From the IMG/VR virus record IMGVR_UViG_3300049043_000233, positions 1 to 63,978 of that record: a stretch of 63,978 nt of DNA. The stretch is one strand, 5' to 3'. The position numbers were made by a program, and so were the translations under genes. This stretch comes from a virus. Below are positions 13,139-61,799 of this stretch, piece by piece (position 1 is the first letter of the stretch; each line of letters starts with the position of its first letter). The notes beneath the pieces were generated by a model. That model saw nothing but the letters and a program-made list of their open reading frames with translations. It searched no databases and was not told the origin of the DNA.

Positions 13139-13657
13139 TCATAGAAGGGTGCCAATAGGACGCAGGAATGCTTTTGGAACAAAATACGCCGGGCGCCCTC
13201 GTGCCGGATCGGCCCAGAACTTTTCCTCCATCGCCTCACTTCCCCAGCACCAGCCATGGATGAGAGTCTTTTGGTTTTCAATCGTCACAAGTACAAAACG
13301 CTTTCGAGGATCCTCTTGCCTCTGGACGATAAGATCGTATGAGTGCTTTGAACGGGTTTTCACATCAATGCCAGGGAGATCGTCGCTACCACGCTTAGCC
13401 TCGGTCTCCTTGAAAAGATGCTCTTTCATCCCCAAGTAGCTGGCCACGGCCATTTCGCCTGCCGCTCCAAGCAAATGCACCTCCAAAGCTTTGTCGCCAA
13501 ACCGTGGCCCTTTATTTCGGCCACGAAGCCCTTTTGCTTCATTGACGGCCTGTCGTCTCATTCCCTCCTCCATCGCTTGCTTCCTTTCCTCGTCGGAGAA
13601 GATAAATTCGATGGGGGTGGGCATAAAGAAATCAAACACCGTATCAATGGTAGCCAC
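13139..13657 (-). CDS. PD-(D/E)XK nuclease-like protein in the small-terminase position
   Basis: A 172-residue protein starting at GTG. GAAGEMAVASYLGM (an alpha-helix with a Glu), then PGIDVKTRSKHSYDLIVQ with a D-x-K core and KRFVLVTIE, fits the PD-(D/E)XK nuclease fold. It precedes the large terminase by 3 bases, where a small terminase subunit is normally found. It could be a DNA-recognition or trimming partner of packaging, or an unrelated nuclease. Fold assignment by motif only. Confidence 0.55.
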   Translation of the reverse strand: MATIDTVFDFFMPTPIEFIFSDEERKQAMEEGMRRQAVNEAKGLRGRNKGPRFGDKALEVHLLGAAGEMAVASYLGMKEHLFKETEAKRGSDDLPGIDVKTRSKHSYDLIVQRQEDPRKRFVLVTIENQKTLIHGWCWGSEAMEEKFWADPARGRPAYFVPKAFLRPIGTLL

Positions 13658-13687
13658 ATTTAGAATGAAAGCAAGCCTGTTGTGTGA

Positions 13688-15763
13688 ATGATGTCGGAAG
13701 AATCAATGGATCTGGGGCATGCCACGGCTCTTGGCCTGCGTGCCGATGGCCTTGCCAACGCGCTCACTGGCATGGGCATCGCCGGTCGGGACAAGAGCAT
13801 GTCCACCACGACGCAGCCAATTGTTTTCCTGGCACAAGAGGAGTTAGAGGGGCTTTATGGTGAATGGCTGCCCAGACGCATCGTCGATATTTACGCCGAG
13901 CAAGCCACGCGCAAGGGGTTCAAGGTGCTGTTTGGCGGAGAAGGTGCAGCCGCCGAGGAAGTGGTGGGCATTGAGCAAGTGATCGAGGACTTGTACATCC
14001 TTGAGAACTTCATGCTTGCCGCCAAGAATTCCAGGCTCTATGGCGGAGCAGTGCTGCTTCTATACATTGATGACGGGCGAGCGGCTGACCAGCCAGTGGA
14101 CAAGAGCAAGATTTATCGCGTGGAAGGCATGGAAGTGCTGGATCGTTGGCAGATTGCGCCAATCATCAACGAAGACAATCTCTACGACTATGCCAAGGCA
14201 ACTTATTACCAAATCATCTCTGGCGATCTCATTAACCAACCACAGTTGACAAAAATCCACAAGGATAGGATTTTGAGGTTTGATGGTGACTGGCTTCCCT
14301 ATCGCATTCGACAAAGGAACTATGGGTGGGGAATGAGCAGTTTGCAGACTGTCTATGAGAGCTTTAGACACTATTGGACTGGTCTTAATAGTGCGGCCAC
14401 CCTGCTGAGTGAGTTTGATATTTTTGTGCATAAGATTCGCGGCCTTTCGCAAATGCTTGCTGCAGGAAAAGAAAAGGATGTGCGCGATCGCTTGGTGCTT
14501 AATGATATGAGCAAGAGTGTGTATCGCGGCTATGCCATTGACGCGGAGAAAGAAGAGCTTGCTTTTATCAGCAGGAATTTTGGGGGCGTAGGAGAAATTC
14601 TTGAGAAAATGCGCGTCGATATTATTGGCGCTTCCAAGATTCCTCACACTGTGTTGTTTGGGGAAAGTCCTAGCGGTCTTGGTTCTACCGGCAGGAGCGA
14701 AGAGAGAGACTTTGCCAAGACGCTGGCGGACTACCAACAATCCACTTTCCATCGCCCTCTCAAAAAGCTGATGACTTACATCATGCTGAGCAAAACAGGG
14801 CCGACCAATGGACGAGTGCCGGAATCATGGCGTATCTCCTTCAATGATTTGTTTGAGCTGAATGAAAGGGAAAAGGCCGACGTGAGGGCTCGTGTGGCGG
14901 CCGTAGACGGGCGTTATATCCAGCTTGGCGTGCTGACTCCCAAGGAGGTGGCGGATGCCCGCTATGGGGGCTCTGAGTGGTCAATGGAGCTTACTCTTGA
15001 TCCATCGGTGGTTAGAGAACTGCCGGTTCAAGGAGGGGGTGGTTCCACTCAGAAAGGGGGTGGTTTTGCCGTGCCCCCTGGTGGTCGTGATCCCCTGAAT
15101 CAAGAAAATGGCACACTTCCAATGGATAGGAGCAGGGAGGTTCAAGATGAAGCTGGCCTGTTTCTTGAGCGCGATTTAGAACATGCCCGTGGAGACATTC
15201 AGTTCAAAGACAAAGACCTTCATCAGCAAGCTATTGCAGCGGCCAAGGCTAAGTTCAAGGTGTGGCCAAGCGCTTATGCCAGTGGCTATATGGTTCAAAA
15301 ATATAAAGAACTATACAAGCAAAAGCACGGTTCGGGCAGTGGCTTTAAGGGAGACGATGGTGATATTGCCGTGGATGATCTTGATCAATGGTTCAAGGAA
15401 GAATGGGTGAGGATTGGCGCCAATGGGGAGATTATTGGCGCTTGCGGTGGGCGCAGCGAGAAAGAGGGCAAGCCAAAGTGCTTGCCAAAGGCAAAGGCCG
15501 AAGCGATGAGCAAAGAAGAAAGGCAGACGATCGTGGCTCGCAAGCGCAAGGCCGACCCCAATCCAGAGCGCAAGGGAGCGGCCAAGATGGTCAGCAGCAA
15601 AGTGGACGCCATCGAGCCCGTGAAAGTGGAAGGCCTCATGCTTGGAGACATTGATGAGGCCGCCTTTATTAGCGAAGCTGACATTGATACGGCCTTGAAA
15701 CAATGGAAAGAGGAAGCGCCCGAACGGTTTAAGGACATCCTGGAAGCTAGCGATGCTGAATGA
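13688..15763 (+). CDS. Portal protein (DUF1073-like) with C-terminal extension
   Basis: A 691-residue protein. Residues 1 to about 440 match phage portals of the DUF1073 type: LYGEWLPRRIVDIYAEQATR, NSRLYGGAVLLLYIDDG, FGESPSGLGSTGRSEERDF. The portal forms the dodecameric DNA channel at the head vertex. After a Gly-rich linker, about residues 500-640 form a second domain (KFKVWPSAYASGYMVQKYK; LDQWFKEEWVRIG; GKPKCLPKAKAEAMSKEE) resembling a small domain appended to many phage virion proteins (DUF5872-like by memory). Starts 30 bases from the divergent terminase operon and overlaps the next gene by 11 bases. Confidence 0.85.
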   Translation: MMSEESMDLGHATALGLRADGLANALTGMGIAGRDKSMSTTTQPIVFLAQEELEGLYGEWLPRRIVDIYAEQATRKGFKVLFGGEGAAAEEVVGIEQVIEDLYILENFMLAAKNSRLYGGAVLLLYIDDGRAADQPVDKSKIYRVEGMEVLDRWQIAPIINEDNLYDYAKATYYQIISGDLINQPQLTKIHKDRILRFDGDWLPYRIRQRNYGWGMSSLQTVYESFRHYWTGLNSAATLLSEFDIFVHKIRGLSQMLAAGKEKDVRDRLVLNDMSKSVYRGYAIDAEKEELAFISRNFGGVGEILEKMRVDIIGASKIPHTVLFGESPSGLGSTGRSEERDFAKTLADYQQSTFHRPLKKLMTYIMLSKTGPTNGRVPESWRISFNDLFELNEREKADVRARVAAVDGRYIQLGVLTPKEVADARYGGSEWSMELTLDPSVVRELPVQGGGGSTQKGGGFAVPPGGRDPLNQENGTLPMDRSREVQDEAGLFLERDLEHARGDIQFKDKDLHQQAIAAAKAKFKVWPSAYASGYMVQKYKELYKQKHGSGSGFKGDDGDIAVDDLDQWFKEEWVRIGANGEIIGACGGRSEKEGKPKCLPKAKAEAMSKEERQTIVARKRKADPNPERKGAAKMVSSKVDAIEPVKVEGLMLGDIDEAAFISEADIDTALKQWKEEAPERFKDILEASDAE

Positions 15764-16430
15764 TCTTGCTCACTTCACGGCATCAATACTGGCCAGCAGG
15801 ATGGATGCTGAATGGTCTTATGATCAGCGTTCTGGACGCTATCGCGATGAAAAGGGCAAGTTTCTCAGCAAGGCCGCAGTGGAGAAGCTTGTTGACAGGC
15901 GCATTGACACGCTTGACGCATCATTGCGCCGCTTCACTCGCATGTTGATTGATGAGCAAATTACGCTTGACCAGTGGCAGGGCAGTGTCAGGGAATCGCT
16001 TAAGGCTGCTCATATTCAGACAGCGCTTGTGGGCTATGGCGGTAGAGCCAATATGGGCAGTGCGGAGTATGGGCGCATCGGTCAGCGCCTTCGTGAAGAA
16101 TACACTTATCTTCAAAGTTTTGCTCGGGACCTGCTTTCTGGGAATGTTTCTGCTCCCATGGCTCTGGCTCGCATTGGCTTATACGCTCAAAGCGTTCGTG
16201 GTTCTTACTGGCAGGGAGCCGAGCTTCGGCAGCAGCAGCAAGGCTACAGCCTCATGCAACGCATCCTGGACAGCCAAGCCAAGCACTGCGACGATTGTCT
16301 CCGCTATGCCGCCCAAGGCATAGTTTCCCTTGGAACTTTGCCACTGCCCGGCCGTCGCTGCGAATGCGGGGCCAGATGCCGATGCAGTGTGCGCTATTTC
16401 AGGCAGCAACCAGCCACGGTGCCAGTTTGA
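15753..16430 (+). CDS. MuF-like head morphogenesis protein
   Basis: A 225-residue protein overlapping the portal gene. The N-terminal part is helical. The C-terminus has the Cys-rich signature of SPP1 gp7/Mu gpF proteins: DSQAKHCDDCLRYA, TLPLPGRRCECGARCRCSV. Such proteins bind the portal and are injected or help head assembly. Its position right after the portal supports this. Confidence 0.75.
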   Translation: MLNDLAHFTASILASRMDAEWSYDQRSGRYRDEKGKFLSKAAVEKLVDRRIDTLDASLRRFTRMLIDEQITLDQWQGSVRESLKAAHIQTALVGYGGRANMGSAEYGRIGQRLREEYTYLQSFARDLLSGNVSAPMALARIGLYAQSVRGSYWQGAELRQQQQGYSLMQRILDSQAKHCDDCLRYAAQGIVSLGTLPLPGRRCECGARCRCSVRYFRQQPATVPV

Positions 16431-16466
16431 ACTTGCCCACTAGGATCTAGCGAGATTCTTTTCCTT

Positions 16467-18362
16467 GTGGCTACTATTCTTTACGCTGGTGATGCAGGGT
16501 GTCAAACGGGCTTTGGGCGTGTGGCCGAATATCTGCTTCCGGCGCTTGCCGAAAAGCATGACGTGCATGTACTTGCCGTAAATTGGCACGGGGACCCATC
16601 GCCACTGCAGAAATGCTGCAAGATGTATCCCGCCATGGCTCATGGCACCGATCCCTTTGGCTCTCATCGCATTGGCGAACTGCTGCAGGTGATCAAACCA
16701 GACTTGGTGTGGGTGACAAATGACATTTGGTGCGCCATCAATCTATGGGAGGCGGCTAAACCATTCCAGGAAAGCCTTGGCTTCAAATGGTTTGTCTACA
16801 CGCCGATCGACAGTTATGGCATCTTTCCCGAGCTGCTTCCAGCGCTTGAACAGTGGGACGGCATTGCCACCTACACTCGTTTTGGCGCCGAAGAAATTGA
16901 AAAGATTGGTTACAAGGATACAATCCGCATCATCGGCCACGGCACCGACTTTTCAAAATTCTTCCCACTAGACCGAGCTGCATGCCGCAAAGAGCTTGGA
17001 GTGCCGGAGGATGTCTTTATTGTGTTCAATGGCAACAGGAACCAACCTCGCAAGCGCATTGATCTGACCATCAAGGGCTTCGTCAAGTTTGCAAAAGACA
17101 AGCCCGATGCTCGACTGTGGCTCAATATGGGCAAAAAAGACATGGGCTGGGACCTCGTGCCACTATTCAAGAGAGTGGCAAGAGACGAGGGTTACGATCC
17201 TACTGGCAAGCTCATTCTTACCAGTCCGCATTTTTCAACAGACAACTGCCTTCCCATTGAACAGCTCAACAAGGTGTACAACGCAGTGGACATTGGCGTG
17301 AACACCTGCATTGGCGAGGGTTGGGGGCTGGTTAATACGGAGCATGCTGCCACGGGGGTGGCTCAATTGGTGCCGGATCATACCAGCCTCAAAGAAATCT
17401 TTTACGACGTGCCCAGAATTGCCTGTCATGGTTCGGAAACCGACAGGAACTATGGTCTTGAAAGGCCCTTGCCAGAGCCTGATAGCATGGCCCTGCTTCT
17501 CGATCACTACTATCGCGATCGCAGTCTCCTGAAGCAGGCAGGGGATTGGTGCTATCAGCGCATGCACGAAGAACCGCTCACCTGGCCCTTCATTCAAAAG
17601 CAAATGCTCGCCACTATCAGGGAACTGCTCGTCAAAACCAAGAAAACCGCCGTCAAGGGCTTCGCAAAAAAGACTGAGGGCCAGGGAACCACGCACTTCC
17701 CTGGCCGCTCTTCTCAGTGGCTTGACTTCAGCGAAGGCCAAGCCGTGTTTTGCATTAGCCTGCTAAACGATGAAAGGCGTCCTAGATTCGCGGCGTCCAT
17801 GGAAAAAATTGGACAACAGTTTGTATGGTGGACGGCCGTAGATGGTCGAGGGCTATCTAGGAAGGAGATGAGTGCCATGAGTCAGGTGCCAATTGAATGG
17901 GAGATAGACGACGACAAAGATGTGTTGCATCGCGTGGGAGAGGCCGCATTGATTGCCTCTTCCATTGGCCTCTGGACCCATGCCAAGGAGCAAGGTTTGG
18001 ACCATTTAGTGGTCCTTGAGGATGACACAGAGGTGATGCGTAAGCTAGTGCTCGAAGTGCCGGATGATGCTGATTTGGTGTTCTTTAATGATCGCAGCGT
18101 GCGAAACAAGGAAGGGCTCACTTGGGGATATGTTTGCGGCACCGATGGCTATTTGGTGACGAAGCAAGGTCTTGATAAGCTTTTGAAGATTTTTTCAACA
18201 ATGTACTTGCCACTTGATTTGCAAATGATCGCCAACATGGAAAGCATGCGCGATTCCAACCATCATCTTTTTGGTTATAGGCGAGAGCACCTGCCTCTTT
18301 TGAAAAGCTATACGCATCCCCCCATTGCATTTCACAAAGATTCACCATCACGCATCCGATGA
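16467..18362 (+). CDS. Two-domain glycosyltransferase (GT4-like plus GT25-like)
   Basis: A 631-residue fusion. Residues 1 to about 400 are a GT-B fold of the GT4 kind: DAGCQTGFGRVAEYLLPAL, FNGNRNQPRKRIDLTIKGF, then GEGWGLVNTEHAATGV as the donor-binding EX7E-like segment. Residues about 415-631 resemble GT25 (LOS galactosyltransferase type): CISLLNDERRPRFAASMEKI, WWTAVDGRGLS, LVVLEDDTEVM. The head-gene position and the ATGA overlap with the radical SAM gene suggest virion modification, but surface glycan or DNA glycosylation is possible. The substrates cannot be told. Confidence 0.85.
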   Translation: MATILYAGDAGCQTGFGRVAEYLLPALAEKHDVHVLAVNWHGDPSPLQKCCKMYPAMAHGTDPFGSHRIGELLQVIKPDLVWVTNDIWCAINLWEAAKPFQESLGFKWFVYTPIDSYGIFPELLPALEQWDGIATYTRFGAEEIEKIGYKDTIRIIGHGTDFSKFFPLDRAACRKELGVPEDVFIVFNGNRNQPRKRIDLTIKGFVKFAKDKPDARLWLNMGKKDMGWDLVPLFKRVARDEGYDPTGKLILTSPHFSTDNCLPIEQLNKVYNAVDIGVNTCIGEGWGLVNTEHAATGVAQLVPDHTSLKEIFYDVPRIACHGSETDRNYGLERPLPEPDSMALLLDHYYRDRSLLKQAGDWCYQRMHEEPLTWPFIQKQMLATIRELLVKTKKTAVKGFAKKTEGQGTTHFPGRSSQWLDFSEGQAVFCISLLNDERRPRFAASMEKIGQQFVWWTAVDGRGLSRKEMSAMSQVPIEWEIDDDKDVLHRVGEAALIASSIGLWTHAKEQGLDHLVVLEDDTEVMRKLVLEVPDDADLVFFNDRSVRNKEGLTWGYVCGTDGYLVTKQGLDKLLKIFSTMYLPLDLQMIANMESMRDSNHHLFGYRREHLPLLKSYTHPPIAFHKDSPSRIR

Positions 18363-20005
18363 ATTCCCGTCTCAAGAACGTTCAAATTCAAACACAAGCA
18401 GCATGCAATGCAAATTGTGTGTTTTGTCCATGGATAGAAAGTTGGCATCATTCCAACTATGGAGTGATGGATAGGCAATTGTTTTCGCGGATTCTCGACA
18501 TGCTTTTGCCATGGAAAGCCAACATTGAAGATGGAGGAAAGATTTGCCCCTATCTCATGCAAGAGCCTTTTGTTGATAAACGCATTTTTGAACTGTGCGA
18601 AGAAATTCAAGAGAAGTTTCCAGGGGCACTTCTAGAGCTTTCAACAAATGGAGCTCTACTATCAAAAGATAATACTGATCGTCTAATTCCTTTGCTTGAG
18701 GGCAGGCCCCACGAGATTTGGGTGAGCCATCATGGCATTGATAAAGCGTCGCATGAGGAGATTATGAAGATCAATCATGAGCGATCCACTGCCAATCTTC
18801 TCCATTTGATCAAAGAAGCCAAGGGAAGGCTCAACGTTCGAGTGCGTGGCAGCGGTTCTTCTCGCACGGGCATTGGACGTCATTGGTTCTCTCGGCAGGA
18901 ATACTTTGCTTATTGGTATAAGCTCTCGCAAGATCATGGCTTTGATTTGTCTTGGATTGATCTTGACTATTTCACCTACCATGATCGGGCGGGCACAATC
19001 AAGCGGGATGAACGCAGTGCAGGGGACAATAATTTTGGCATTGTGAGAGACATTGGTCCCAATGCTCCTTTCCATTGCAGCCGTCTTGACGAATGGCTTC
19101 ACATCATGTGGAATGGTGACATTCGCTTGTGCTGCATGGATTACCACGCAGAAGTGAAATTGCCCAACCTCAATGAAATGACGATTGAGGAATACTATCG
19201 AGGGAATGATTTTGCTGGCATTGCCGCACAAGTGACAGGGCGGCAGCAGAGTGCCGATGATTTCATTTGCAAAAGATGCACTGAGCCCGGGAGGCTAAAA
19301 TACAATGCAAAGCCAGACTTCGCCTTGACCATGGAGTGTCCTTCTTGCATTGTTGACTCCTCGGTCAACCGTGAACACCATCGATATGCCATTGCCAACG
19401 CAATGCTTGGCCCCGCTGATCCATCGCTCCCTAATGCCGCCTTCTGGAAAGAACTGGCAAAGCGATGGGAAGTGGGGCTGGCAGATGCTCTTTCTCGTCG
19501 TTGCAACAACTGCGAAAACTATATTGACACGCAGCAAATTCAAGAATGTATTCAACGACATGGATCGTTTGACATTACAAGTCTTGGTGGTGCCTTTCGC
19601 GACATGGGAGACGCTAGTGGATATTGCACGCTTTATGACATCACCTGTACAGCAAGCAGGGTTTGTGTAGACTGGGAAGCTGGTGGACCCATTACCACTT
19701 TTAAAGAAGGATCAAGCGCCATGGAAGAAGCGACAAACGATCGCGCAGACGCCAAAAAGATGTCTGCAAAGCAGAAGAAGATTTCTGAGGTTATGCGTGA
19801 GTTCAAAGAGGGAAAACTTAAAAGCAGCAGCGGTCAACCAATTACTAATTACAAACAGGCCGTGGCCGTAGCCCTGTCAGAAGCGGGCATGGCAATGAAG
19901 AAAAAGGACGCCAGTGAAGACTATTTGCGTGGATTCATCCAGCAAATTTTACAGGAAGAAGAGGCCATGCAGGAAGAAGGCGATAATACCTGCCCAAAGG
20001 ACTGA
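18359..20005 (+). CDS. Radical SAM/SPASM protein fused to phage-virion domains
   Basis: 548 residues. The radical SAM cluster motif CNANCVFC (C16, C20, C23) binds a 4Fe-4S cluster and S-adenosylmethionine. A SPASM-like set follows (CSRLDEWLHIM, GDIRLCCMDY, DFICKRC), typical of enzymes that modify peptides. From about residue 320 there is a second Cys-rich region (MECPSCIV; RRCNNCENYI; GYCTLYDITC; RVCVDWEAGGP) of a kind seen in phage head proteins. It is followed by KISEVMREFKEGKLKSS, a short basic domain common in phage structural proteins. Starts by ATGA overlap with the glycosyltransferase. A likely -1 frameshift at about 19,985 would add another domain. Confidence 0.8.
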   Translation: MNSRLKNVQIQTQAACNANCVFCPWIESWHHSNYGVMDRQLFSRILDMLLPWKANIEDGGKICPYLMQEPFVDKRIFELCEEIQEKFPGALLELSTNGALLSKDNTDRLIPLLEGRPHEIWVSHHGIDKASHEEIMKINHERSTANLLHLIKEAKGRLNVRVRGSGSSRTGIGRHWFSRQEYFAYWYKLSQDHGFDLSWIDLDYFTYHDRAGTIKRDERSAGDNNFGIVRDIGPNAPFHCSRLDEWLHIMWNGDIRLCCMDYHAEVKLPNLNEMTIEEYYRGNDFAGIAAQVTGRQQSADDFICKRCTEPGRLKYNAKPDFALTMECPSCIVDSSVNREHHRYAIANAMLGPADPSLPNAAFWKELAKRWEVGLADALSRRCNNCENYIDTQQIQECIQRHGSFDITSLGGAFRDMGDASGYCTLYDITCTASRVCVDWEAGGPITTFKEGSSAMEEATNDRADAKKMSAKQKKISEVMREFKEGKLKSSSGQPITNYKQAVAVALSEAGMAMKKKDASEDYLRGFIQQILQEEEAMQEEGDNTCPKD

Positions 20006-20139
20006 GGGGCGACGCCGAATCATTTTCCCCTCCATCGTCTGTTCGTGCCGCAGCGCGTCGTGGCCTCGAACTTCGCAGGAAATATGGCAAAGGCGGACTG
20101 ACCACTCAGGAGGCAGGCAAGCAGGGCATTGGTAGTGGC

Positions 20140-20352
20140 GTGGCAAGAGCCACTAGCTTGGCCAATGGCGAAGCCGTGAGTTACGAGACGATTAAGCGCA
20201 TGGCCGCATTCTTCTCTCGCCACGAAAAGAATAAAGGTGGAGGAGAAAATGACGCTGGATATATAGCGTGGGAATTATGGGGCGGAAACGCGGGAAGGTC
20301 GTGGGCGTCACGCATCATTAAGATGGTGGAAAGTCGTCGTCAAGGACAATGA
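20140..20352 (+). CDS. Head-protein-type C-terminal domain, probably frameshifted from the radical SAM gene
   Basis: This frame is open from about 19,988 and reads LPKGLRGDAESFSPPSSVR, AAARRGLELRRKYGKGG, VSYETIKRMAAFFSRHEKN, GYIAWELWGGNAGRSWASR. The latter is a domain I associate with phage head and protease proteins. The first in-frame start (GTG 20140) would cut the domain in half. If one base is missing in the C-run of aatacctg near 19,985, the radical SAM protein continues into this domain. It ends with an ATGA overlap to the next gene. Confidence 0.55.
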   Translation: MARATSLANGEAVSYETIKRMAAFFSRHEKNKGGGENDAGYIAWELWGGNAGRSWASRIIKMVESRRQGQ

Positions 20353-20657
20353 GCGAATACGTCCGGGTGATTGAGGAAGAAGAAGAAGATGGCATTGGCC
20401 TAATGAAGGCGCTTGCCATTTTGTCCGCTCACGAACATCGCGGCACTTCTCATTGGCGATTGATTGAACAACAGCATTTCAAGAATGGGCGTCTTGACGA
20501 AACTCATATTTTTGTGGAAACCTTCTACGAGAAGCCCGACGAACACTTTGAACCAGTAAAGATGCTTACCTTCGAGGCCGAGGCCATTGCCAAGGCTTAT
20601 GTCATGGAAAGCATTGAGGCTCAAATTCGTGATCTTCAAGACGATGACGATGACTGA
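20349..20657 (+). CDS. Hypothetical acidic protein
   Basis: A 102-residue acidic protein with EEEEEDGIGLMKALAILSAH, ETFYEKPDEHFEPVKMLTF and a C-terminal run of five Asp. Starts by ATGA overlap with the preceding frame and overlaps convergently with the 3' end of the XRE regulator. Function unknown. Confidence 0.6.
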   Translation: MSEYVRVIEEEEEDGIGLMKALAILSAHEHRGTSHWRLIEQQHFKNGRLDETHIFVETFYEKPDEHFEPVKMLTFEAEAIAKAYVMESIEAQIRDLQDDDDD

Positions 20658-20932
20658 CCAGCGTTCAAAACAAAACTAGGCATTCCCAATAGCCAAAGCA
20701 CCGACACTCCATATACGCCACTGAGGGTGGCAAGTTGCACTGCCGAGGGTTCTGTTTCGGCTCGTTCCATGCGGCAGTAAGTGCTTGCCCCAATATGAAG
20801 CTCCTTGGCAATGGCTCGCTGAGAAAGTCCACTGTTTAGTCGCGCATCTCGTAGCCGTTCGGCCACGACTAGCTTGCGCTGGTGATGAGGCATCCGCAGA
20901 GCGTTGGTGCTGCTGGCCATCAAAAACCGCAT
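20636..20932 (-). CDS. XRE/Cro-type helix-turn-helix regulator
   Basis: A 98-residue protein on the minus strand inside the head module. AERLRDARLNSGLSQRAIAK, ELHIGASTYCRMERAETEP, AVQLATLSGVYGVSVLWLLG is a classic Cro/CI-family helix-turn-helix. It lacks a peptidase or dimerisation domain, so it is Cro-like in size. It faces the protease/capsid operon across a 62-base intergenic region and could control itself and that operon. A second in-frame ATG four codons in is an alternative start. Confidence 0.8.
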   Translation of the reverse strand: MRFLMASSTNALRMPHHQRKLVVAERLRDARLNSGLSQRAIAKELHIGASTYCRMERAETEPSAVQLATLSGVYGVSVLWLLGMPSFVLNAGQSSSSS

Positions 20933-20994
20933 TTTCTGTGCCGCCTATGGGACAAATGTTTTGATTATTGTAAACCATTGGCTAGTTTTATACC
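20933..20994. promoter_or_regulatory. Divergent promoter/operator region between the XRE and head genes
   Basis: A 62-base AT-rich space. A possible rightward promoter is TTGTAA with TTATAC about 16 bases on, just before the ATG at 20995. An imperfect palindrome TTGATTATTGTAA is a candidate operator for the XRE protein. Confidence 0.35.
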
Positions 20995-22185
20995 ATGAGC
21001 GAAACTTCTTTTCGTTACGATGTTGCGCCGATCGAGCGTTATGAGATGACCCCTGAGGGTTATCTCCGCGCTTGGGCAACCATCGCACGCACTGGTGTGC
21101 AAATGTACACCGATGCCGATGGTTCCGTTCGTCGCGAATATCGTCCAGCGGAAGAAGTAAGTTCGCCAGAGAGCCTCGCTTCCTTTGCGGGCAAGGCTGT
21201 CACTCTCGAACATCCCCCCATTCTTCTTGATAGCGCCAACACGAAAAACTATCAAATTGGTTTTTCTGGCACTGAAGTGGTTTATGACAACGGCTTTGTT
21301 CGTGCTGTCATGACCATTACGGATAAGGACGCCATCGAAAAGATCATGCGCGGCGATGCAAAAGAAGTCAGTGCCGGCTATAGGGTTGAATTTGACCCTA
21401 CGCCCGGCGTTGCGGATACAGGCGAGAATTACGATGGCATCCAACGGATGATCAATGGTAATCACATTGCCGTGGTTCGCAGGGGTCGGGCTGGCCCACA
21501 GGTGAAGCTTCATCTAGATCGTCTAGATGCCGCAGATCCATCATTACTTTCCATTGAGGACCCATCTATGACTGCAAAAGTCAATTTTGATGGCGCCGAG
21601 TTTGAGGTGAGCGAGAGCGTTGCTCTGGCGATCACTAAAGAACGCGAAGACGCCAAGATGTCCTACGAGGACATGAAGAAGAAGTACGATGCCATGATGG
21701 CCGAAGCTTCCAAAATGAAGGAAGAAATGGATGCCATGGGCAAAGAGATGAAGGGCAAATGCGATGCCGCTGAAGGTCGCGCTGATGCCTTGGAGCAAGA
21801 ACTGGAAGCCGCCAAGGCCGATCTGGAAGCTGCTGCTCAAGTGAATGTTGATTCGCTTGTTGAGGAGCGTTTTGCTCTGATTGATAAAGCTCGCGCCACC
21901 CTGGATAGCGAGTTTGATTTCACCGGCAAAAAAGCTCGTGAAATCATGGAAGCCGCCATTAAGGCGGTGCGTGGCGACTCTTTTGATCTGTCGGAGCGTT
22001 CCGACGATTACGTGGAAGCCATGTTTGACACTCTGGCCGAGTCCGCTCATAGCGATTCTGCCACCACCGATGAGCTGCGCAAAGCCGTTGCTTCCATCGC
22101 CACTCCTGCTTCTGCACCGTCTTCCTACATGGAGCGCCTGCAGAACGCCTGGAAGACCCCCCTTTCCATCTCCAAGGAGCGCTGA
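20995..22185 (+). CDS. Prohead protease (DUF2213-like) fused to scaffold
   Basis: 396 residues. The first about 180 match the DUF2213 prohead protease type: GYLRAWATIARTGVQMYTD, FAGKAVTLEHPPIL, DAKEVSAGYRVEFD, INGNHIAVVRRGRAG. Residues about 215-300 are a long acidic coiled coil (KKKYDAMMAEASKMKEEMD; DALEQELEAAKADLEAAAQ) typical of scaffolding protein. One polypeptide probably scaffolds the procapsid and then cleaves itself. Directly precedes the cement and capsid genes. Confidence 0.8.
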   Translation: MSETSFRYDVAPIERYEMTPEGYLRAWATIARTGVQMYTDADGSVRREYRPAEEVSSPESLASFAGKAVTLEHPPILLDSANTKNYQIGFSGTEVVYDNGFVRAVMTITDKDAIEKIMRGDAKEVSAGYRVEFDPTPGVADTGENYDGIQRMINGNHIAVVRRGRAGPQVKLHLDRLDAADPSLLSIEDPSMTAKVNFDGAEFEVSESVALAITKEREDAKMSYEDMKKKYDAMMAEASKMKEEMDAMGKEMKGKCDAAEGRADALEQELEAAKADLEAAAQVNVDSLVEERFALIDKARATLDSEFDFTGKKAREIMEAAIKAVRGDSFDLSERSDDYVEAMFDTLAESAHSDSATTDELRKAVASIATPASAPSSYMERLQNAWKTPLSISKER

Positions 22186-22188
22186 TCC

Positions 22189-22752
22189 ATGGCCGTCACT
22201 TTTACCCCTTCGGGCACGGCTGCTGCAGGTGGTGTTCAGCAAAGCTATGCGCTTGAGCTGACTGCCCTTCAGGAAGGCCAACTGTCCGACATCCGCGACA
22301 ACACCATTGGCACCTATATCAATGAGACGGGTGCTGTCATTCCCTTTGGCAATATCGTCACCTTTGCTAGTGGCGGCACTGTTGCCAACTCCGCTAAGAC
22401 CATCAGTGGCACCTCTGAAACCGTGGTGGGTGTTAATGTTCTCACCTATGTAGACGAGAAAGCTGCCGACGCCAACAGCCGTCCCGGCGTGAAAGCCGCT
22501 CAGGCAATGAACGTGGCTAACGAAGGTGCAGTGGCCATGTATGTGCATGGTTCCGTCACCCCGGCTACTGCCGTGCGTGTGATCCACACAGCCACTGGCG
22601 TGCAGTACGCGGGTCAACTGCGTAGCGCATCGCTTTCGGGCAAGACTGCTGTTCTCTCGAACGCTCGTTATCTCACTTCCGTCACCGGCTCTGGCCTGGC
22701 GATCGTTGAGTTTAACGGTCCTGCCTTCACCCTCACCGCTGACAATTCCTGA
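22189..22752 (+). CDS. Capsid cement/decoration protein (DUF2190-like)
   Basis: A 187-residue beta-rich, Gly/Ala/Thr-rich protein (GAVIPFGNIVTFASGGTV; PGVKAAQAMNVANEGAVAMY) between the scaffold and the capsid gene. This is the position and look of the structural cement proteins that stabilise expanded capsids. Confidence 0.65.
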   Translation: MAVTFTPSGTAAAGGVQQSYALELTALQEGQLSDIRDNTIGTYINETGAVIPFGNIVTFASGGTVANSAKTISGTSETVVGVNVLTYVDEKAADANSRPGVKAAQAMNVANEGAVAMYVHGSVTPATAVRVIHTATGVQYAGQLRSASLSGKTAVLSNARYLTSVTGSGLAIVEFNGPAFTLTADNS

Positions 22753-22766
22753 TAGGAGGCCCTCCC

Positions 22767-23672
22767 ATGTCTGATTTTCGTATGGATGAAGCGGGTCTGT
22801 TTCTCTCGCGTCAGCTTGAGTACATCCGCCCGCAGGTGTTTGAGATTCAGTACGCTGACATCAAATACCCCACTATCCTGCCCGTGACCAGCGAGGCTGG
22901 TCCTGGCGCACAAACCTTCACCTACCGCATCATGGATGCCACGGGTGATTTCAAGGTGATTTCCGACGCCGCCGATGATCTGCCTCGTGCCGACATCAGC
23001 CAAACCGAGAAGAGCATCAACATCCGCTCGATCGGTGGTTCGTTTGGCTACACCGTTCAAGAACTTCGTGCTGCACAAATGGCGAATATCGCCCTTGAGC
23101 AGCGTCGCGCTTCCGCCGTTCGTCGTGCTTACGAAGAAAAAGTGGAAGGCATTGCCATGTTCGGTGAGTCCTCCGTTGGCTTGGCTGGTTTCTTCAACAA
23201 TTCCACGGTTGACCTTGTGGTTGCCGATAAGTGGTTCACCGATAGCGGCACCACTGCTCAGGAAATGCTTGAGCTTTTGAACTATGGCGTGACTGCCATT
23301 GTCAATGGCTCGCAAATGAAAGAAGAGCCCGACACTATCCTCATGCCCTTTGAGGATTACAGCAAGGTGAGCACCACTCGTAATAGCGATTCTTCGGATG
23401 TCACTGTGCTGGAATATTTCCTGCGCACCAACCCTTACATCCGCAACGTTGAGCCCATCAACCAGCTCAAAGCTGGCAACGGCTCGCTTACCAAGAACCG
23501 CATGGTCGTGTACAAGCGCGATCCTCAGAAGGTGCAACTGCACCTGCCCCAACCCCTTGAACTGTTCCCCCCTCAACAGCGCGGTCTGGAATTCATCGTT
23601 CCCGCCCATGCTCGCGTGGGTGGCGTGGCCCTCTACTACCCCAAGAGCGTCATTTACGTTCAAGATAACTGA
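22767..23672 (+). CDS. Major capsid protein (DUF2184-like)
   Basis: 301 residues with strong Shine-Dalgarno (ataggaggccctcccatg). SDFRMDEAGLFLSRQLEYI, SIGGSFGYTVQELRAAQM, RRAYEEKVEGIAMFGE, EFIVPAHARVGGVALYYP fit DUF2184 capsid proteins with an HK97 fold. The phage head shell is built from this protein. Context (scaffold, cement, connectors) agrees. Confidence 0.85.
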   Translation: MSDFRMDEAGLFLSRQLEYIRPQVFEIQYADIKYPTILPVTSEAGPGAQTFTYRIMDATGDFKVISDAADDLPRADISQTEKSINIRSIGGSFGYTVQELRAAQMANIALEQRRASAVRRAYEEKVEGIAMFGESSVGLAGFFNNSTVDLVVADKWFTDSGTTAQEMLELLNYGVTAIVNGSQMKEEPDTILMPFEDYSKVSTTRNSDSSDVTVLEYFLRTNPYIRNVEPINQLKAGNGSLTKNRMVVYKRDPQKVQLHLPQPLELFPPQQRGLEFIVPAHARVGGVALYYPKSVIYVQDN

Positions 23673-23720
23673 GCATGAAAGGGGCGTTAAGCTGATTAGC
23701 AGTTCTTATCGAACATTTCC

Positions 23721-24107
23721 ATGTTGATCGCTTATCGCCCCGAGCTCGAAAATCCGCCTCGTGAAGGGGGACTCGGCGTCATTACAGACGTTGGCATGAT
23801 CCAGCTCAGTCCGGGAGTGAATTCAGACGTGCCAGAAACCAAATGGGCTCAGGCACGTAGCAATGCAACCGTCAAGCGTCTTCTGGCGATTGGCGCCATT
23901 GAAGAGCTGAAAGACACTCCCACTGTTCAGGACATCCCCCAGAAGGTATCCACCCTTGTCGATCTTTCACTTTCCGACGCAATCCGCATGATTGAAATCA
24001 TGCACGATGAAGAACAGCTTCAAAGCTGGAAAAAAGTGGAAGGGCGGGTGAGGGTGCGCAATGCCATCAGCAAGCGTCTTGAGGCCATTCGCATTGGGAA
24101 AGCCTAA
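23721..24107 (+). CDS. Putative head-tail connector-region protein
   Basis: 128 residues after the capsid gene: GVITDVGMIQLSPGVNSDVP, VKRLLAIGAIEELKD, LSDAIRMIEIMHDEEQLQSW. A helical C-terminus. It probably belongs to the neck by position. The next gene begins 2 bases after its stop. Confidence 0.55.
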   Translation: MLIAYRPELENPPREGGLGVITDVGMIQLSPGVNSDVPETKWAQARSNATVKRLLAIGAIEELKDTPTVQDIPQKVSTLVDLSLSDAIRMIEIMHDEEQLQSWKKVEGRVRVRNAISKRLEAIRIGKA

Positions 24108-24109
24108 TC

Positions 24110-24421
24110 ATGGCCGTCACCTATGCCAGCTTCTTAGATCGCTTCCCCGAATTCACTCCCCATCCATCGGGCATTGTGAATGGGGCCATCACAGAGGCAG
24201 CGGCTGATGTTGGCGACGTTTTCGGCAATCAAGCCGATCGCGCAACCAAGCACCTAGCCGCACACATTATTGCCATTCAACTTGCACAAATGGGCATTCA
24301 AATTGGTGCCACGGATGGCAAGGTTTATGGCAAAGGACTTGAAGCCACTCAATATGGCCAAGAGTTCAAACGCATGCTTGAAACCGTCGTTGGTGCTTCT
24401 TCAATTGGTTTTGTTGTATGA
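24110..24421 (+). CDS. Head-tail connector (DUF4054-like adaptor)
   Basis: 103 residues: YASFLDRFPEFTPHPSGIV, ITEAAADVGDVFGNQADRAT, HLAAHIIAIQLAQMG. This matches the helical adaptor proteins (DUF4054/gp6-like) that sit under the portal. ATGA overlap with the next gene. Confidence 0.75.
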   Translation: MAVTYASFLDRFPEFTPHPSGIVNGAITEAAADVGDVFGNQADRATKHLAAHIIAIQLAQMGIQIGATDGKVYGKGLEATQYGQEFKRMLETVVGASSIGFVV

Positions 24422-24807
24422 CCAACTCCCTTGCGCCACTTGCTAATGCCACCCTGGTGTGGCAAGTTGCGTCTGGGTATGTGGCCGACAATACCACTGG
24501 CAATTATGTGGCCATGGCAACTGGCATCACATACCATGCCTCGTTGAAGCAAAAGCAGAATCCTCGTTTTGATTATTTGCTTGGGGCTGATAATACGGCA
24601 GTGTACATGGAAGGAAGGCTAACTTCACCATTAGCCCTTTCCGGCATCACTCCTGGAAGCTCCGCTGCAGCAACAATCAATGGGAGGGAAGGACGGTTTG
24701 AACTGTTGCCCAACGAGCAAATTGCTGAACACTATTGGCAGTTTCTCGGCACGCCAATCCGGGGCATTTTTAGACTGGTTGGCAAAGGAAGCGTTCAGAA
24801 CGTCTGA
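24418..24807 (+). CDS. Putative head-closure protein
   Basis: 129 residues, beta-rich: LVWQVASGYVADNTTGNYVA, YLLGADNTAVYMEGRL, LPNEQIAEHYWQFLGTPIRG. Size and place after the adaptor suggest the stopper/head-closure role; no direct motif. Confidence 0.5.
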   Translation: MTNSLAPLANATLVWQVASGYVADNTTGNYVAMATGITYHASLKQKQNPRFDYLLGADNTAVYMEGRLTSPLALSGITPGSSAAATINGREGRFELLPNEQIAEHYWQFLGTPIRGIFRLVGKGSVQNV

Positions 24808-24844
24808 CGCTTAACCACTTTCTCTTTCCATTGAGGATCTTCTC

Positions 24845-25423
24845 ATGCTCTATCATCCCACCGAGCTGGTTAAGAGCCAAGACGTTATTGTGCGCGTTGG
24901 CTCCGTTATCACTGCTTCTGGTCGTCCCGTTATCACCCAGAGTGGCGCCACTTTTACTGTTAGCGGCGCTCCCACCCTCTACACTCTTCAAGCTGCCACC
25001 ACAGCTTCTGTTGCCTTCAACGATGGCAACACAGAGTTCTATCTGCTGGGCGGCGGCGGCTTCTCGGACAGCGTGATCGTCACTTCGCAGGCCACTGCCT
25101 CTATCACTTCTTATTTTCAGAAGGATGTGGACGGTACGACCTTCGTACCCGATAGTTTCGACGAAGCCTTCCAGGTGATCGCCACCGGTCGTTACGACAA
25201 GACTGCTGAAGTGTATGTCGAAATCAACAAGCAACTTGGCTCAAGCGGCACCACGTTTTACTACGATCGCGTGGCCTATGTGGGTCGCGTGATGAACTAC
25301 AACGAGAATTATCCTGCCGATAACCTCGTGGAGGTCACCTTTGATTTGATCAGTCGCGGTCGTATTGGCATTCACCAGGCCGCCACCTCATCGGGCAGCA
25401 TCATTCCGTCAGCTCCCAACTGA
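24845..25423 (+). CDS. Putative tail or neck structural protein
   Basis: 192 residues from ATG after ggatcttctc. Beta-rich with IVRVGSVITASGRPVITQSG, TSYFQKDVDGTTFVPDSFD, YVEINKQLGSSGTTFYYDR. Resembles tail-tube/neck proteins by composition and place. A terminator-like hairpin follows. Confidence 0.5.
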   Translation: MLYHPTELVKSQDVIVRVGSVITASGRPVITQSGATFTVSGAPTLYTLQAATTASVAFNDGNTEFYLLGGGGFSDSVIVTSQATASITSYFQKDVDGTTFVPDSFDEAFQVIATGRYDKTAEVYVEINKQLGSSGTTFYYDRVAYVGRVMNYNENYPADNLVEVTFDLISRGRIGIHQAATSSGSIIPSAPN

Positions 25424-25445
25424 TCTTTCCATCGTTTTTCTTGCT

Positions 25446-25473
25446 AGCCTCTCCATATGGAGGGGCTTTTTTT
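25446..25473 (+). terminator. Terminator-like hairpin abutting a start codon
   Basis: AGCCTCTCCA (25446-25455), TA, TGGAGGGGCT (25458-25467), then a run of T up to the ATG at 25474. The GGAGG of the 3' arm would also be the ribosome binding site for the next gene, so folding would both stop transcription and hide the site. Confidence 0.7.
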
Positions 25474-25884
25474 ATGAACATTCTTCAGCTTAGGGAGGTG
25501 GTCACCGATCTCCTTGGCGCCGCCCCTAATTTAATCGGCACCTATATCCTCCCCAACAACAGCACGATTCCGGCAGTGTATGTGGTGGGACAAAAAAGCG
25601 TGCCTTCAGAGTGGAAGGTGACTGGCCTAGAGGTGACCATGCGTCAATATCCAGAGCCGCGTCCGCGTTCGCCCATGGGCGGGACAGTGAAGGTGCGGCA
25701 ATTGTGGGAAGTTGTTCTTATGCAATATGAACCAAGTGGCAAACAAATCAGTGATGCTATGGACCGAATGGTTAGGCGGTTTCCAGATTGTAATTTGCGA
25801 TTTTTTCCTGGCAATGATGTGGCTTATGAGCGCTGTCGCATTGTCATTCCAGACTTGATTTTGCGCCCTCTTTATCGCGAATGA
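25474..25884 (+). CDS. Putative tail terminator/completion protein
   Basis: 136 residues: NILQLREVVTDLLGAAPNLI, VKVRQLWEVVLMQYEPSGKQ, DAMDRMVRRFPDCNLRFFPG. Size and order (before an HK97-gp10-like gene and the tape-measure chaperones) suggest tail completion. ATGA overlap with the next gene. Confidence 0.5.
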   Translation: MNILQLREVVTDLLGAAPNLIGTYILPNNSTIPAVYVVGQKSVPSEWKVTGLEVTMRQYPEPRPRSPMGGTVKVRQLWEVVLMQYEPSGKQISDAMDRMVRRFPDCNLRFFPGNDVAYERCRIVIPDLILRPLYRE

Positions 25885-27587: not shown

Positions 27588-29441
27588 ATGGCAGCCGAAA
27601 GCGCAGAACTTCAGCTAAGGGTAAGTCTTGACCTTACAACACTGCGTCGTCAACTTGCCGGCATTGGCACCGAACTGAGCGGGCAAGGCCTTAATCTGCC
27701 TATTGGGTTTGACAGAAAAAGTATTAGTTCTGAATTTCAACGACTCCGCACGTATGTAGGCAATAAAAAATTCAACATTGAAATCAATACAAATTTAAGC
27801 GGTGAAATTGATAAGGCTAAAAATCTAGCCGAAGCAATCAATCAACTTTCAAAAGCTACGCGGGGATTATCTGGTATCAGCAGTGCCGCTGGACCACAGG
27901 GGTTGCGTGGCCTGATTCTTGATGAAAATACCTCACGCAAACAACTTCAAGCACTATACAAATTTGCGCGAGCAGCAAACCTTCCTTTTCAGGAATTAGC
28001 GCGAGGAGCAGCTTCGTCTACCGAAGATTTGAAGCGAGTTTTATTTGCCGGTTTTGGTTCTATTGGTGATGATGCAAAGGCGGGGATTTCCAATGCCCTC
28101 AAAGATGCCGATAGCACGCTGGCTAAACTTGGCCGCGATATGGGAGAGGCATTACTTGGAGGTCTTAGGACTGATCTCGGCATTGCTTCGCCATCAAAAG
28201 AAACTGCAAAATTAGGCAAATTTGCTGCCGAAGGTTTCGAAAAAGGCTTTATAGCCGGCATGATCAAAGCCGAACGCACTATTGCCAGAGCAGTAAGCAA
28301 TGCAGTGATTGGCGCTATTTATGAGGGTTTGACTACTGCTGGCAACATCGCTCCGGCGTTTGCTCCACTAGAACGAGCTCTGGCAGCGCAGATTAGACAG
28401 TCATTCCAACGCGCAATGCACGACGGCATAAAGGGATCAATCTTGCCCGGTGCTCAAGGTGGATTGCTTGGATTGCTTGGTGGCGGGGCGACTGGTGCAG
28501 CCATTGGCGGAGCACGCGCACTTGGAGGGGCGGCGACCGCTGGCCTATCCAGTCTGGCAGGTGGTGGTAGGTTTGAGATGGCCAAGCAACTAGGGCGTCT
28601 AACCATTGGCGATACCTCTGGTTTGACCAACTTTGTGCAAGATGCCACCGCTCAGGCGATGCACCAAGCATTTAGCACGGGCACATTAGGGGCATTGATT
28701 GGCGCTGCTGCAGTGGGCGGAGTGGCTGGTTCTTCCGGCTTTGTCCGAGGGGCCATTGGCTCTTTAACGCGCCAGATTCTTGAAGGCATTGCCGACAGGA
28801 TTCTAGCTGGCATCGCTTCAATTACTAGCGGCGATATTGGCCCCGCAATGGGGCGATTATCACAGGCAATTATCAACGTATTGGTCAGAGACCTGGAAAG
28901 ACGTGTTCAGTCAATGAACATTTCTTTCCCATCGATGCTTCCCGCCCTGCCTCCGGCTTATAGAGGGCTCCCTCAAGCCGGCGGCAATGCCTTTGGCGCT
29001 CTGCCCCCGGCATATCGAGGACTTCCGGGAAGAACCACTTCTGCGTTGCCTCCAGCTTACAGAGGTTTGCCGATGGGAGGGTTTGATTTTGCGGCAATGG
29101 GTGCAATGCCGCAAGGTGGCACAGGCGATAATCAAGGAGGTAAAATCGTCTCCCTTCAAAGTGGATTTATTGTTTCCATGCGCGAGCGTTTTGCTCGTGC
29201 TGCGGAACGCTATTTATTTGGCATTGAAACACAAGTAGTTGACTTGTTTGATTCAGCAGAAGCTGCTGTGCGTGTAAAGATAGATCAGGCTATGGCTCGC
29301 CTTGAATCGCAAATCAGGGCAGGTATGGCGCAAAAAGTTTCCGTGCGCGATTTGGGTAATGTTGTCCAGCCTGCCCTGCCTGGTGCTGTCCCGAAACGTC
29401 AACTAGCACTTCCCGCTGCGGGAGGAACGGGGGAGGTGGAA
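27588..29441 (+). CDS. Tail tape measure protein, N-terminal part
   Basis: First part of a roughly 1,990-residue tape measure protein that sets tail length. AELQLRVSLDLTTLRRQLAG begins a helical region. Gly/Ala-rich hydrophobic segments occupy about residues 290-400 (LLGLLGGGATGAAIGGARAL). Three PPAYRGLP repeats lie at about residues 453-495. The frame breaks at a G5 run near 29,430; the open frame after it (to 29,618) is spurious. A missing G would join this part to the next. Confidence 0.8.
28944..29073 (+). repeat. Threefold ALPPAYRGLP coding repeat
   Basis: Decapeptide ALPPAYRGLP is encoded at 28944-28973, 28998-29027 and 29044-29073 with different codons in each copy, so it is kept at the protein level. 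Pro/Tyr-rich repeats in the middle of a tape measure may form a flexible or binding segment. Confidence 0.75.
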
Positions 29442-29443
29442 AG

Positions 29444-30661
29444 ATGCCACCCGCAGGAGGAGGATTTGTTCCGCCCGATGGTTTTCCTGTCGAAGGCATG
29501 CTTGCTCCTAGCCGCCCATATAGACCGGCCCAAACAGAATTGGGCACAGGTTATTTTGCGGCGGGAAAGGCAATCAAGTCTTTTGGGGAAGAATATAATA
29601 AAATTAGGGGTTTTTTGAATCAAAATAAACTTCCGCTGGGAGGCGCCATTGCGGAGGTTGGGGATGAGTTTGGGGTGGCACTAAAGCAGGTTTTCTTGTA
29701 TGGTGCTGCTTACAAAGCGTTGGCTTTCTTTACTGATCTACCAAATCAAGCTTTTGACGCCGCAAAGGCATTAGCCACGTATCAGAATCAACTTAAAGCA
29801 GTTACTAGTGCTACAGGCACTTTTGAGCAATCTACCGCTTTTGTTGAAAATTTGGCTCAGCGTTTTAACGTGCCCCTCGAAAGTGCGCGTCAAGGCTTTG
29901 TCAAACTATATGCTTCAATGGAGCCCGCTGGATTTAGCCAGCAAGAAATCGAAGGATTGTTTACAGGAATTTCCAAGGCAACGGCTGCTTTTGGTCTAAG
30001 CGCAGATCAGGTGGATCGGGTTAATTATGCTTTTGCGCAAATGGCTAGCAAAGGCCAAATCATGGCCGAGGAAGTCAAGGGGCAACTTGGTGACGTGCTT
30101 CCGGGAGCCTTGGCATTGTTTGCCAAGGCTGCCCAAATGAGCATCCCAGAATTTTCCAAGGCGATGGAAGATGGGGCCTTCAAGGCGCAAGCAATGCAAC
30201 AGGTGTTGGGAAATGTCGCAATTTTAATGAACAATAAATTCGGCCCTGCCGCGCAATTGGCCTCCAAAACCCTGCAGGGTGCGTTGAATGAAATACAAAA
30301 TAATTTGAAATTGATGTACGAAAGCTTTACTCCTATTGTGAATGGTTTTGCTTCTGCATTTGGCCCGGCCGCAAATAGTTTGATCAAAGATATTACCACT
30401 ACCATCAAGGTTCTCACTGGCTCTTTTGTCAAGGGTGGCGACGGCCTCGCAACACTTTCTCCGCGAGCTCTGGCTTTTTATGGCATCATTCAACAACTAA
30501 AACCAGCAATTCAAGCTGCGGCAATTTCAATAGGCAATTTGGCATCAACATTTGCACAGCTTGCCCCGCTAATTTTTACTACCATTGAAGCCGTCTTGAG
30601 ATTTATCGCTTCCCCCTGGGTCGCTTTGCAATTATTGCGACTGCGGCTATTACTGCATTAA
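29444..30661 (+). CDS. Tail tape measure protein, middle part
   Basis: Opens with PPAGGGFVPPDGFPVEGM in the frame following the break at 29,430. About residues 80-330 are the conserved tape-measure core (TYQNQLKAVTSATGTFEQS; LSADQVDRVNYAFAQMASKG; EVKGQLGDVLPGALALFAKA). Its last 14 residues are out of frame: a C5 run at about 30,611-30,615 needs one more C to continue (GRFAIIATAAITALNGA) into the third part. Confidence 0.8.
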   Translation: MPPAGGGFVPPDGFPVEGMLAPSRPYRPAQTELGTGYFAAGKAIKSFGEEYNKIRGFLNQNKLPLGGAIAEVGDEFGVALKQVFLYGAAYKALAFFTDLPNQAFDAAKALATYQNQLKAVTSATGTFEQSTAFVENLAQRFNVPLESARQGFVKLYASMEPAGFSQQEIEGLFTGISKATAAFGLSADQVDRVNYAFAQMASKGQIMAEEVKGQLGDVLPGALALFAKAAQMSIPEFSKAMEDGAFKAQAMQQVLGNVAILMNNKFGPAAQLASKTLQGALNEIQNNLKLMYESFTPIVNGFASAFGPAANSLIKDITTTIKVLTGSFVKGGDGLATLSPRALAFYGIIQQLKPAIQAAAISIGNLASTFAQLAPLIFTTIEAVLRFIASPWVALQLLRLRLLLH

Positions 30662-30696
30662 ATGGTGCCATTACGCTGCTCACCAACGTTGGTCTT

Positions 30697-61692: not shown

Positions 61693-61799
61693 TAGCGCTG
61701 CTTATGCAGGGGCCGCTTTGATCAGTGGCTCTGCTGGTTTGGTTGCAACTGCTCGGCCTGGCTGCCATGATGGGGAGCGCTTCCTCTTGCCCTTGCTGG
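61693..61799. promoter_or_regulatory. Divergent early promoter region
   Basis: 107 bases between the leftward recombination operon and the rightward primase. GCCCCTG-type and CAGGGGC segments form an inverted repeat (about 61,668-61,712). Expected site of early promoters; no consensus boxes fixed. Confidence 0.35.

Follow-up and report, generated by a model that had tools for sequence, protein, structure and literature searches.

The 63,978-base virus record IMGVR_UViG_3300049043_000233 of IMG/VR (referred to below as the window, i.e. the whole stretch of DNA that was analysed) carries, inside its head-gene block, a glycosyltransferase that unites GT4 and GT25 domains in one chain and, directly after it, a radical S-adenosylmethionine (SAM) enzyme. 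Comparison with relatives reveals that these genes occupy a slot in which a constant GT4 gene is accompanied by exchangeable partners, and at the level of gene content the close relatives give good support for a swappable glycan cassette tied to the head genes. We propose tentatively, with a confidence that falls a little short of even, that the slot is an exchangeable cassette for glycan assembly and tailoring of S-CBS4-like phages, in which the radical SAM enzyme would act on a sugar and a virion protein would be a likelier acceptor than the surface of the host. The closest annotated phage that we found is Synechococcus phage S-CBS4, whose host group is aquatic cyanobacteria; its capsid protein is 86% identical to that of the window and the order of the flanking genes is the same.

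A slot with a constant GT4 gene and exchangeable partners

The slots were defined by the flanking head genes, from the gene at the MuF position to the protease, and only contigs that span the whole slot were counted. Following a capsid-protein scan of IMG/VR (best 80 of 174 relatives), 26 loci were found to span the slot, three of which (L008, L026 and L098) were dropped as contigs of L016, L005 and L090, respectively. The 23 records that remain represent 20 distinct slots, as the slots of three pairs agree at 99% identity or more. Twenty-one of the 23 (S-CBS4 and IMG/VR contigs) were retrieved with the capsid protein as the sole query; L096 and L100 came from a GT25 scan, and therefore provide no independent evidence for GT25. 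Family names for the variable genes come from Pfam searches with 19 representatives and, for the other members, from clustering.

The GT4 gene is present in all 23 slots as well as in the window (in the noisy record L016 it is broken by frameshifts), and around it the gene content varies. A transferase of the Gly_transf_sug type is found in 12 of the 23 slots, DUF4422 in 11, an FkbM methyltransferase in six, a CmcI-type methyltransferase in four, GT25 also in four, and a C-methyltransferase in one. Ten slots share a set of three genes, which comprises an unassigned 249-aa open reading frame (ORF), a xylose-isomerase-like barrel and a DAO-like protein encoded on the opposite strand. The radical SAM gene is found in one slot only (L005); the other six contigs that carry it do not span the slot. 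The S-CBS4 slot holds a GT2-like transferase (below the Pfam cut-off) and a methyltransferase, and that of L016 a gene for a protein resembling high-potential iron-sulfur proteins (HiPIP). For some variable genes, e.g. L017_25, L090_1931, L050_3833 and L070_2441, Pfam gave no family match.

Among the 18 capsid proteins that were compared, near-identical ones are accompanied by different cassettes: the pairs are the window and L016 (100% identity), L009 and L017 (99.3%), and L050 and L070 (97.3%). A more specific version of the proposal is that the slot is a serotype-switching locus, at which phages that share a capsid protein would trade entire glycan cassettes. Their sugar coat, in which one sugar would have been modified by the radical SAM enzyme, could then change while the capsid stays the same; we consider this version possible, but on the unlikely side. 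Two kinds of ORF, which may be drivers of cassette exchange, were seen in some of the slots, i.e. an HNH endonuclease in S-CBS4 (L010:12317-12832) and an unassigned 171-aa ORF in L045 (3790-4305), L046 and L059 (3796-4311).

In the window the slot is anchored upstream by the portal protein with a C-terminal DUF5872 domain (13688..15763, + strand; PF06381 E=2.5e-62, PF19197 E=1.6e-10), and its upstream border is the gene at the MuF position (15753..16430, + strand), which matches phrog_24776 (E=4.9e-79), has no Pfam match and is of unknown function. Downstream of the modification genes lies a conserved head-module gene (20005..20352, + strand; phrog_2859 E=7.7e-14), listed from 20140; codons 20005-20139, 5' of this listed start, are 76-100% conserved in 22 of the 23 slots, and the gene therefore probably begins farther upstream. 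The downstream border of the variable part is a small conserved gene of unknown function (20349..20657, + strand), which is present in 23/23 slots and has no match in Pfam or PHROGs. It is followed by the downstream anchor, the DUF2213 head maturation protease/scaffold (20995..22185, + strand; PF09979 E=5.2e-43, phrog_530 E=2.2e-104), by the cement protein (22189..22752) and by the major capsid protein (22767..23672, + strand; PF09950 E=2.7e-59), the one shared unchanged with L016. A repressor-like gene, read as such from its ORF, lies within the head module on the opposite strand (20636-20932), and S-CBS4 has an annotated repressor at the equivalent place; together with a phage integrase (49406-50383, - strand; PF00589) it suggests that the phage may be temperate. 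Farther away, an 814-aa protein with SPRY and DUF7483 domains (43366-45810) is possibly a tail fibre or spike.

The glycosyltransferase and the radical SAM enzyme

The glycosyltransferase ORF encodes 631 aa (16467..18362, + strand) and is composed of a GT4 domain (16467..17699) and a GT25 domain (17700..18362). The GT4 half matches phrog_2170 over aa 5-387 (E=1.8e-48), and among solved structures it is closest to B736L, a chlorovirus transferase (PDB 3oy2, E=3.4e-14); the Pfam match to Glycos_transf_1 (E=1.8e-4) is under the cut-off of that family. The E-X7-E motif of GT4 (retaining GT-B) transferases was seen by eye in 17/17 GT4 rows of our alignment, from which only the GT4 rows were used, the GT25-only rows having been misplaced onto the GT4 half. 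The GT25 half matches PF01755 above the curated cut-off (E=1.9e-10, 41.4 bits vs 24), with positions 4-101 of the 199 in the profile covered, and the EDD motif of GT25 enzymes is invariant in 11/11 sequences. A model of this half calculated with AlphaFold 2 (AF2) from the 11 sequences has a predicted local distance difference test (pLDDT) score of 80.6, and its best PDB match in a Foldseek search is the human GT25 enzyme COLGALT1 (E=2.2e-9, template modelling (TM) score normalized to the query 0.65-0.70, root-mean-square deviation 4.4-5.2). The PDB list for the model also includes entries from PBCV-1 with titles that refer to glycosylation of the major capsid protein, and the BFVD list contains many viral GT25 proteins.

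Seven contigs share the radical SAM gene (L002-L007 and L009). The GT4 and GT25 domains are in one frame in L002, L005, L006 and L007, and also in L003 and L009 as far as the fragments show, while in L004 the frame between them is broken by a small deletion. In three other contigs (L090, L096 and L100) a GT25 domain about 50% identical lies in a frame different from that of GT4, which indicates a separate gene. Judging by these reading frames, and by the matches of both halves to glycosyltransferase families, the GT4-GT25 fusion is genuine, and the initial annotation, which had recognized two glycosyltransferase folds in one chain, was correct in this respect.

The stop codon of the glycosyltransferase and the start codon of the radical SAM gene overlap in the window as ATGA. 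The initial annotation had placed such coupled modification genes between MuF and protease/scaffold; this position holds for the ORFs, with the coupling seen at the junction of these two genes. As it reads in the window, the radical SAM ORF has 548 aa (18359..20005, + strand), and by homology the enzyme itself is a stand-alone protein of about 311 aa (18359..19301, + strand). Its matches in Pfam are SPASM (PF13186, over the cut-off) and radical SAM (PF04055, E=1.5e-5, below the cut-off). The radical SAM motif CX3CX2C (C16, C20 and C23) and one auxiliary set (C240-X17-C258 and C304-X2-C307) are invariant in 7/7 sequences including the window, and the cysteines of both the radical SAM and the SPASM halves, remarked upon at the outset, are thus indeed present; all conserved cysteines past C23 are found at positions 63, 80, 240, 258, 259, 304 and 307. 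The gene is genuine and under strong purifying selection, with ratios of nonsynonymous to synonymous substitution rates (dN/dS) of 0.017 and 0.022, both calculated between relatives, as synonymous divergence from the window is near or at saturation. A second viral scan with the alignment of the enzyme returned the same seven contigs, and two scans of cellular genome contigs, which detect close relatives only, returned no cellular relatives.

What this enzyme would do was considered in the light of its cysteines and of its only structural match. At E<=0.1 the sole match in the PDB is BtrN (two entries, including 4m7s), with a weak score (E=6.7e-5). BtrN is a 2-deoxy-scyllo-inosamine dehydrogenase, which oxidises a cyclitol alcohol in an antibiotic pathway, and it has the same C-X17-C plus C-X2-C spacing, with a four-cysteine auxiliary cluster. 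The three radical SAM cysteines and three of the four auxiliary ones (C258, C304 and C307) are in register with BtrN, although overall similarity is weak. The pattern CX2CX5CX3C of the second auxiliary cluster in full SPASM peptide maturases does not occur; the protein of the relatives stops four residues past C307, so that a second set has no room. Peptide chemistry (formation of a thioether or an epimer) appears disfavoured, given the single auxiliary set, BtrN as the only PDB match, and the replacement of the radical SAM enzyme by methyltransferases and other transferases in relatives. The window's stand-alone enzyme would most likely act in a BtrN-like way on the hydroxyl of a sugar, by oxidation or epimerisation.

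Several observations speak against this assignment to sugar chemistry. In the BtrN alignment, the stretch of residues 6-109 has an independent E-value of 0.016 and that of residues 245-308 one of 43, and C240 falls outside the aligned region. In NCBIfam the ORF scores highest against TIGR04317, a maturase model (E=3.9e-11, 42.7 bits vs a cut-off of 380), followed by weaker matches to models of the HxsC maturase and of a "twitch domain", none of them near its cut-off. The predicted structure of the enzyme, calculated from seven near-identical sequences, is poor (pLDDT 49.8). On the side of peptide chemistry, where a recognition domain and a precursor peptide would be expected nearby, the Pfam results include no such domain, and no search was aimed at small precursor peptides.

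An extra base, the HiPIP-DUF6496 gene and a shared head block

The initial annotation regarded the radical SAM enzyme as fused to virion-type domains, and proposed that these C-terminal domains tether it to the particle. A viral protein scan with the whole ORF identified eight loci, seven with the radical SAM core and one (L008) that matches the HiPIP-DUF6496 part alone. The 3' end of the radical SAM gene is visible in six relatives (L002, L003, L004, L005, L006 and L009), and in 6/6 it is a separate gene with a stop at about residue 311, followed by DUF6496 in another frame. In the DNA alignment the window carries one additional base on the + strand at ~19282 (the exact place depends on the alignment), missing in all six, by which the homologous stop is shifted out of frame; the frame then stays open across what had been the spacer and enters an ORF that has an ATG of its own at 19331. 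The fusion to virion-type domains is thus not supported, and neither is tethering, since the fusion depends on a single base.

The downstream part (19331..20005, + strand), a HiPIP-like cysteine domain with DUF6496 (PF20106, E=2e-6), is probably a separate gene. The same ATG is present in L008/L016, behind a different upstream gene, namely a Gly_transf_sug-type transferase that in L008 finishes before the HiPIP ORF. Homologous phage proteins are annotated as "high potential iron-sulfur protein"; Pfam gave no HiPIP match for the gene and a PDB search gave nothing meaningful, and the label "HiPIP-like" hence refers to the annotation of relatives and to cysteines conserved in three sequences. A viral scan with this gene found only L101, which is the same contig as L008/L016. 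DUF6496 is present in 22 of the 23 related slots (it is absent from L100), and 21 of these 22 lack the radical SAM gene. In other phages HiPIP-like cysteine proteins were seen near head or terminase genes (L014:5656-6390 and L015:5123-5533), that of L015 with an annotated mannosyltransferase and a methyltransferase nearby.

At the DNA level, identity between the window and L016 is 78% over 13171-17462 and 99.0% over 19326-25832, with no match in the interval between the two (17463-19325), i.e. the 99% block opens five bases 5' of the ATG at 19331 and closes near 25832. L005 and L009, in turn, match the window until 19302, with the match resuming at 19996-20005. These borders suggest that the window joins a lineage carrying the radical SAM gene to a head block that begins at the HiPIP-DUF6496 gene. 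The 6.5-kb head block shared with the noisy record L016 (IMGVR_UViG_3300049043_000241) is flanked by matched segments of 71-80% identity, and it may reflect either recent recombination or chimeric assembly.

For the extra base itself an indel introduced in assembly would be the simplest source, as other conserved genes of the window are frameshifted too: two shifts occur in the tape measure (27588-33558) and one in a RecA-family ATPase (61725-63759), all of them probably indels in the record. In this test 48 of the 105 annotated S-CBS4 features were tried as proteins against the window; 27 match, two of them in more than one frame. Alternatively, the fusion could be real and recent, if recombination had brought the HiPIP-led head block to the radical SAM lineage and a one-base insertion had then joined the genes. 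The two ends of the shared block, five bases before the HiPIP ATG and near 25832, would agree with such a history, as would the lack of a clear ribosome-binding site (judged by eye) ahead of that ATG; the three other frameshifts in conserved genes make an assembly indel as likely or likelier, and we regard a real fusion as improbable.

The same single base bears on the enzyme envisaged at first, a virion-tethered radical SAM protein that introduces thioether or epimer changes into a capsid or tail protein. Its radical SAM and SPASM family matches, its continuous ORF into DUF6496 and the maturase models among its best NCBIfam matches (all far under cut-off) are what such an enzyme might be expected to display; that ORF hinges on a base absent from 6/6 relatives, and the protein has one auxiliary-cluster set and BtrN as its only PDB match, which together render the idea hardly credible. 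What endures of the virion modification system first suggested is a gene set linked to head genes, with GT4 in every slot; the tethering does not, and the peptide chemistry is disfavoured.

Possible acceptors of the proposed glycan, and known systems

According to the proposed mechanism, GT4, as the invariant enzyme, would attach a sugar to an acceptor that stays the same, the glycan would be extended by a variable second transferase (in the window GT25, joined to GT4), and a swappable tailoring enzyme would decorate the sugar, in relatives by O- or C-methylation and by other enzymes, in the window by the radical SAM enzyme. Co-expression with the head genes, the order of sugar transfer, the substrate, the chemistry and the virion target are all points that we infer. 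A virion protein is favoured as the acceptor over the host surface on account of the head linkage in the close group and of the chlorovirus enzymes in both PDB lists.

The chief competitor of a virion target is a cassette that remodels a host surface polysaccharide, e.g. the O-chain of lipopolysaccharide (LPS), and thereby blocks other phages, an alternative that we judge to be possible though rather less than probable. In a survey of pelagimyophages a hypervariable region holds glycosyltransferases, for which the authors propose modification of the host O-chain, and radical SAM gene cassettes (PMC7029224); that host recognition cluster differs from the cassette of the window in its location beside the tail-fibre genes of T4-like phages, whereas the window cassette is in the head module. 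Pfam describes GT25 as a family of LPS biosynthesis. Against a host target, the genes lie within the head-gene block in S-CBS4 and its close relatives (the slots were defined by head genes, but 21 of the 23 were fetched by the capsid alone), and the PDB lists of the two transferases both include chlorovirus relatives.

A number of observations weigh against a virion target or against the cassette as a single head-linked unit. The integrase and the repressor-like gene of the window fit a host-surface function, and the diversity of cassettes beside an unchanged capsid suits a virion and a host-surface target alike. In 10/23 slots one cassette gene is on the opposite strand, which argues against one transcript in those slots. 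Among distant relatives, the GT4 homologue of S-EIVl (43% identical), which is likewise a point in favour of the host surface, adjoins a primase, and the 19-kb stretch that was inspected contains no annotated head gene; that of Tetrasphaera phage TJE1 (31%) is located upstream of the terminase and grouped with a nucleotide-sugar epimerase and a methyltransferase; that of Microcystis phage Mae-JY09 (26%) directly follows the capsid gene region. Head linkage, for which relatives were to be inspected according to the initial annotation, thus holds in the close group, with all 23 slots containing GT4, and is mixed beyond it.

A third candidate for the acceptor is phage DNA, the glycosyltransferases acting on its bases. 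Phage transferases that glycosylate DNA are known (PMC12619734), but the partners in the slots are sugar-type methyltransferases and other transferases, and among the slot genes, which is where the search was made, no base-hypermodification gene was recognised; we consider this very unlikely.

Comparison with characterized systems places the proposed glycan cassette among phage glycosylation loci. The slot of S-CBS4 (gp014-gp018, NC_016766) has the same portal, MuF-position gene, GT4, DUF6496, conserved small genes, protease and capsid as the window, and differs in having a GT2-like enzyme as its second, unfused transferase, in the replacement of the radical SAM enzyme by a methyltransferase and the HNH gene, and in a free-standing DUF6496. 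The chloroviruses, which infect algae, offer a further likeness: the GT4 half matches B736L, and the PBCV-1 capsid transferase 2p6w, presumably A64R, appears in the GT25 fold list, although only as a distant fold match (TM about 0.4). According to PMC4691112, A64R itself unites a transferase with a methyltransferase-like domain, and the role of B736L is only proposed. In mycobacteriophages, transferases such as Che8 gp110 and Corndog gp38 glycosylate capsid and tail-tube proteins (PMC12363180); as in the window the transferases are phage-encoded, a likeness drawn from the published description, whose passages on these enzymes mention no radical SAM enzyme. Within the open-licence literature that was searched, we found neither a description of a radical SAM gene with transferases in an S-CBS4-like head module nor a case in which the glycan of a virion is tailored by an enzyme of the radical SAM kind.

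The cassette is in this sense a variation on already known phage glycosylation, and the comparison also corrects a false lead, as the "enzyme fused to virion domains" goes back to one extra base in one metagenome record. If the proposal is true, cyanobacterial phages would diversify their sugar coat through the exchange of cassettes within the block of head genes, and the alteration of sugars by a radical enzyme would join the glycan chemistry of viruses.

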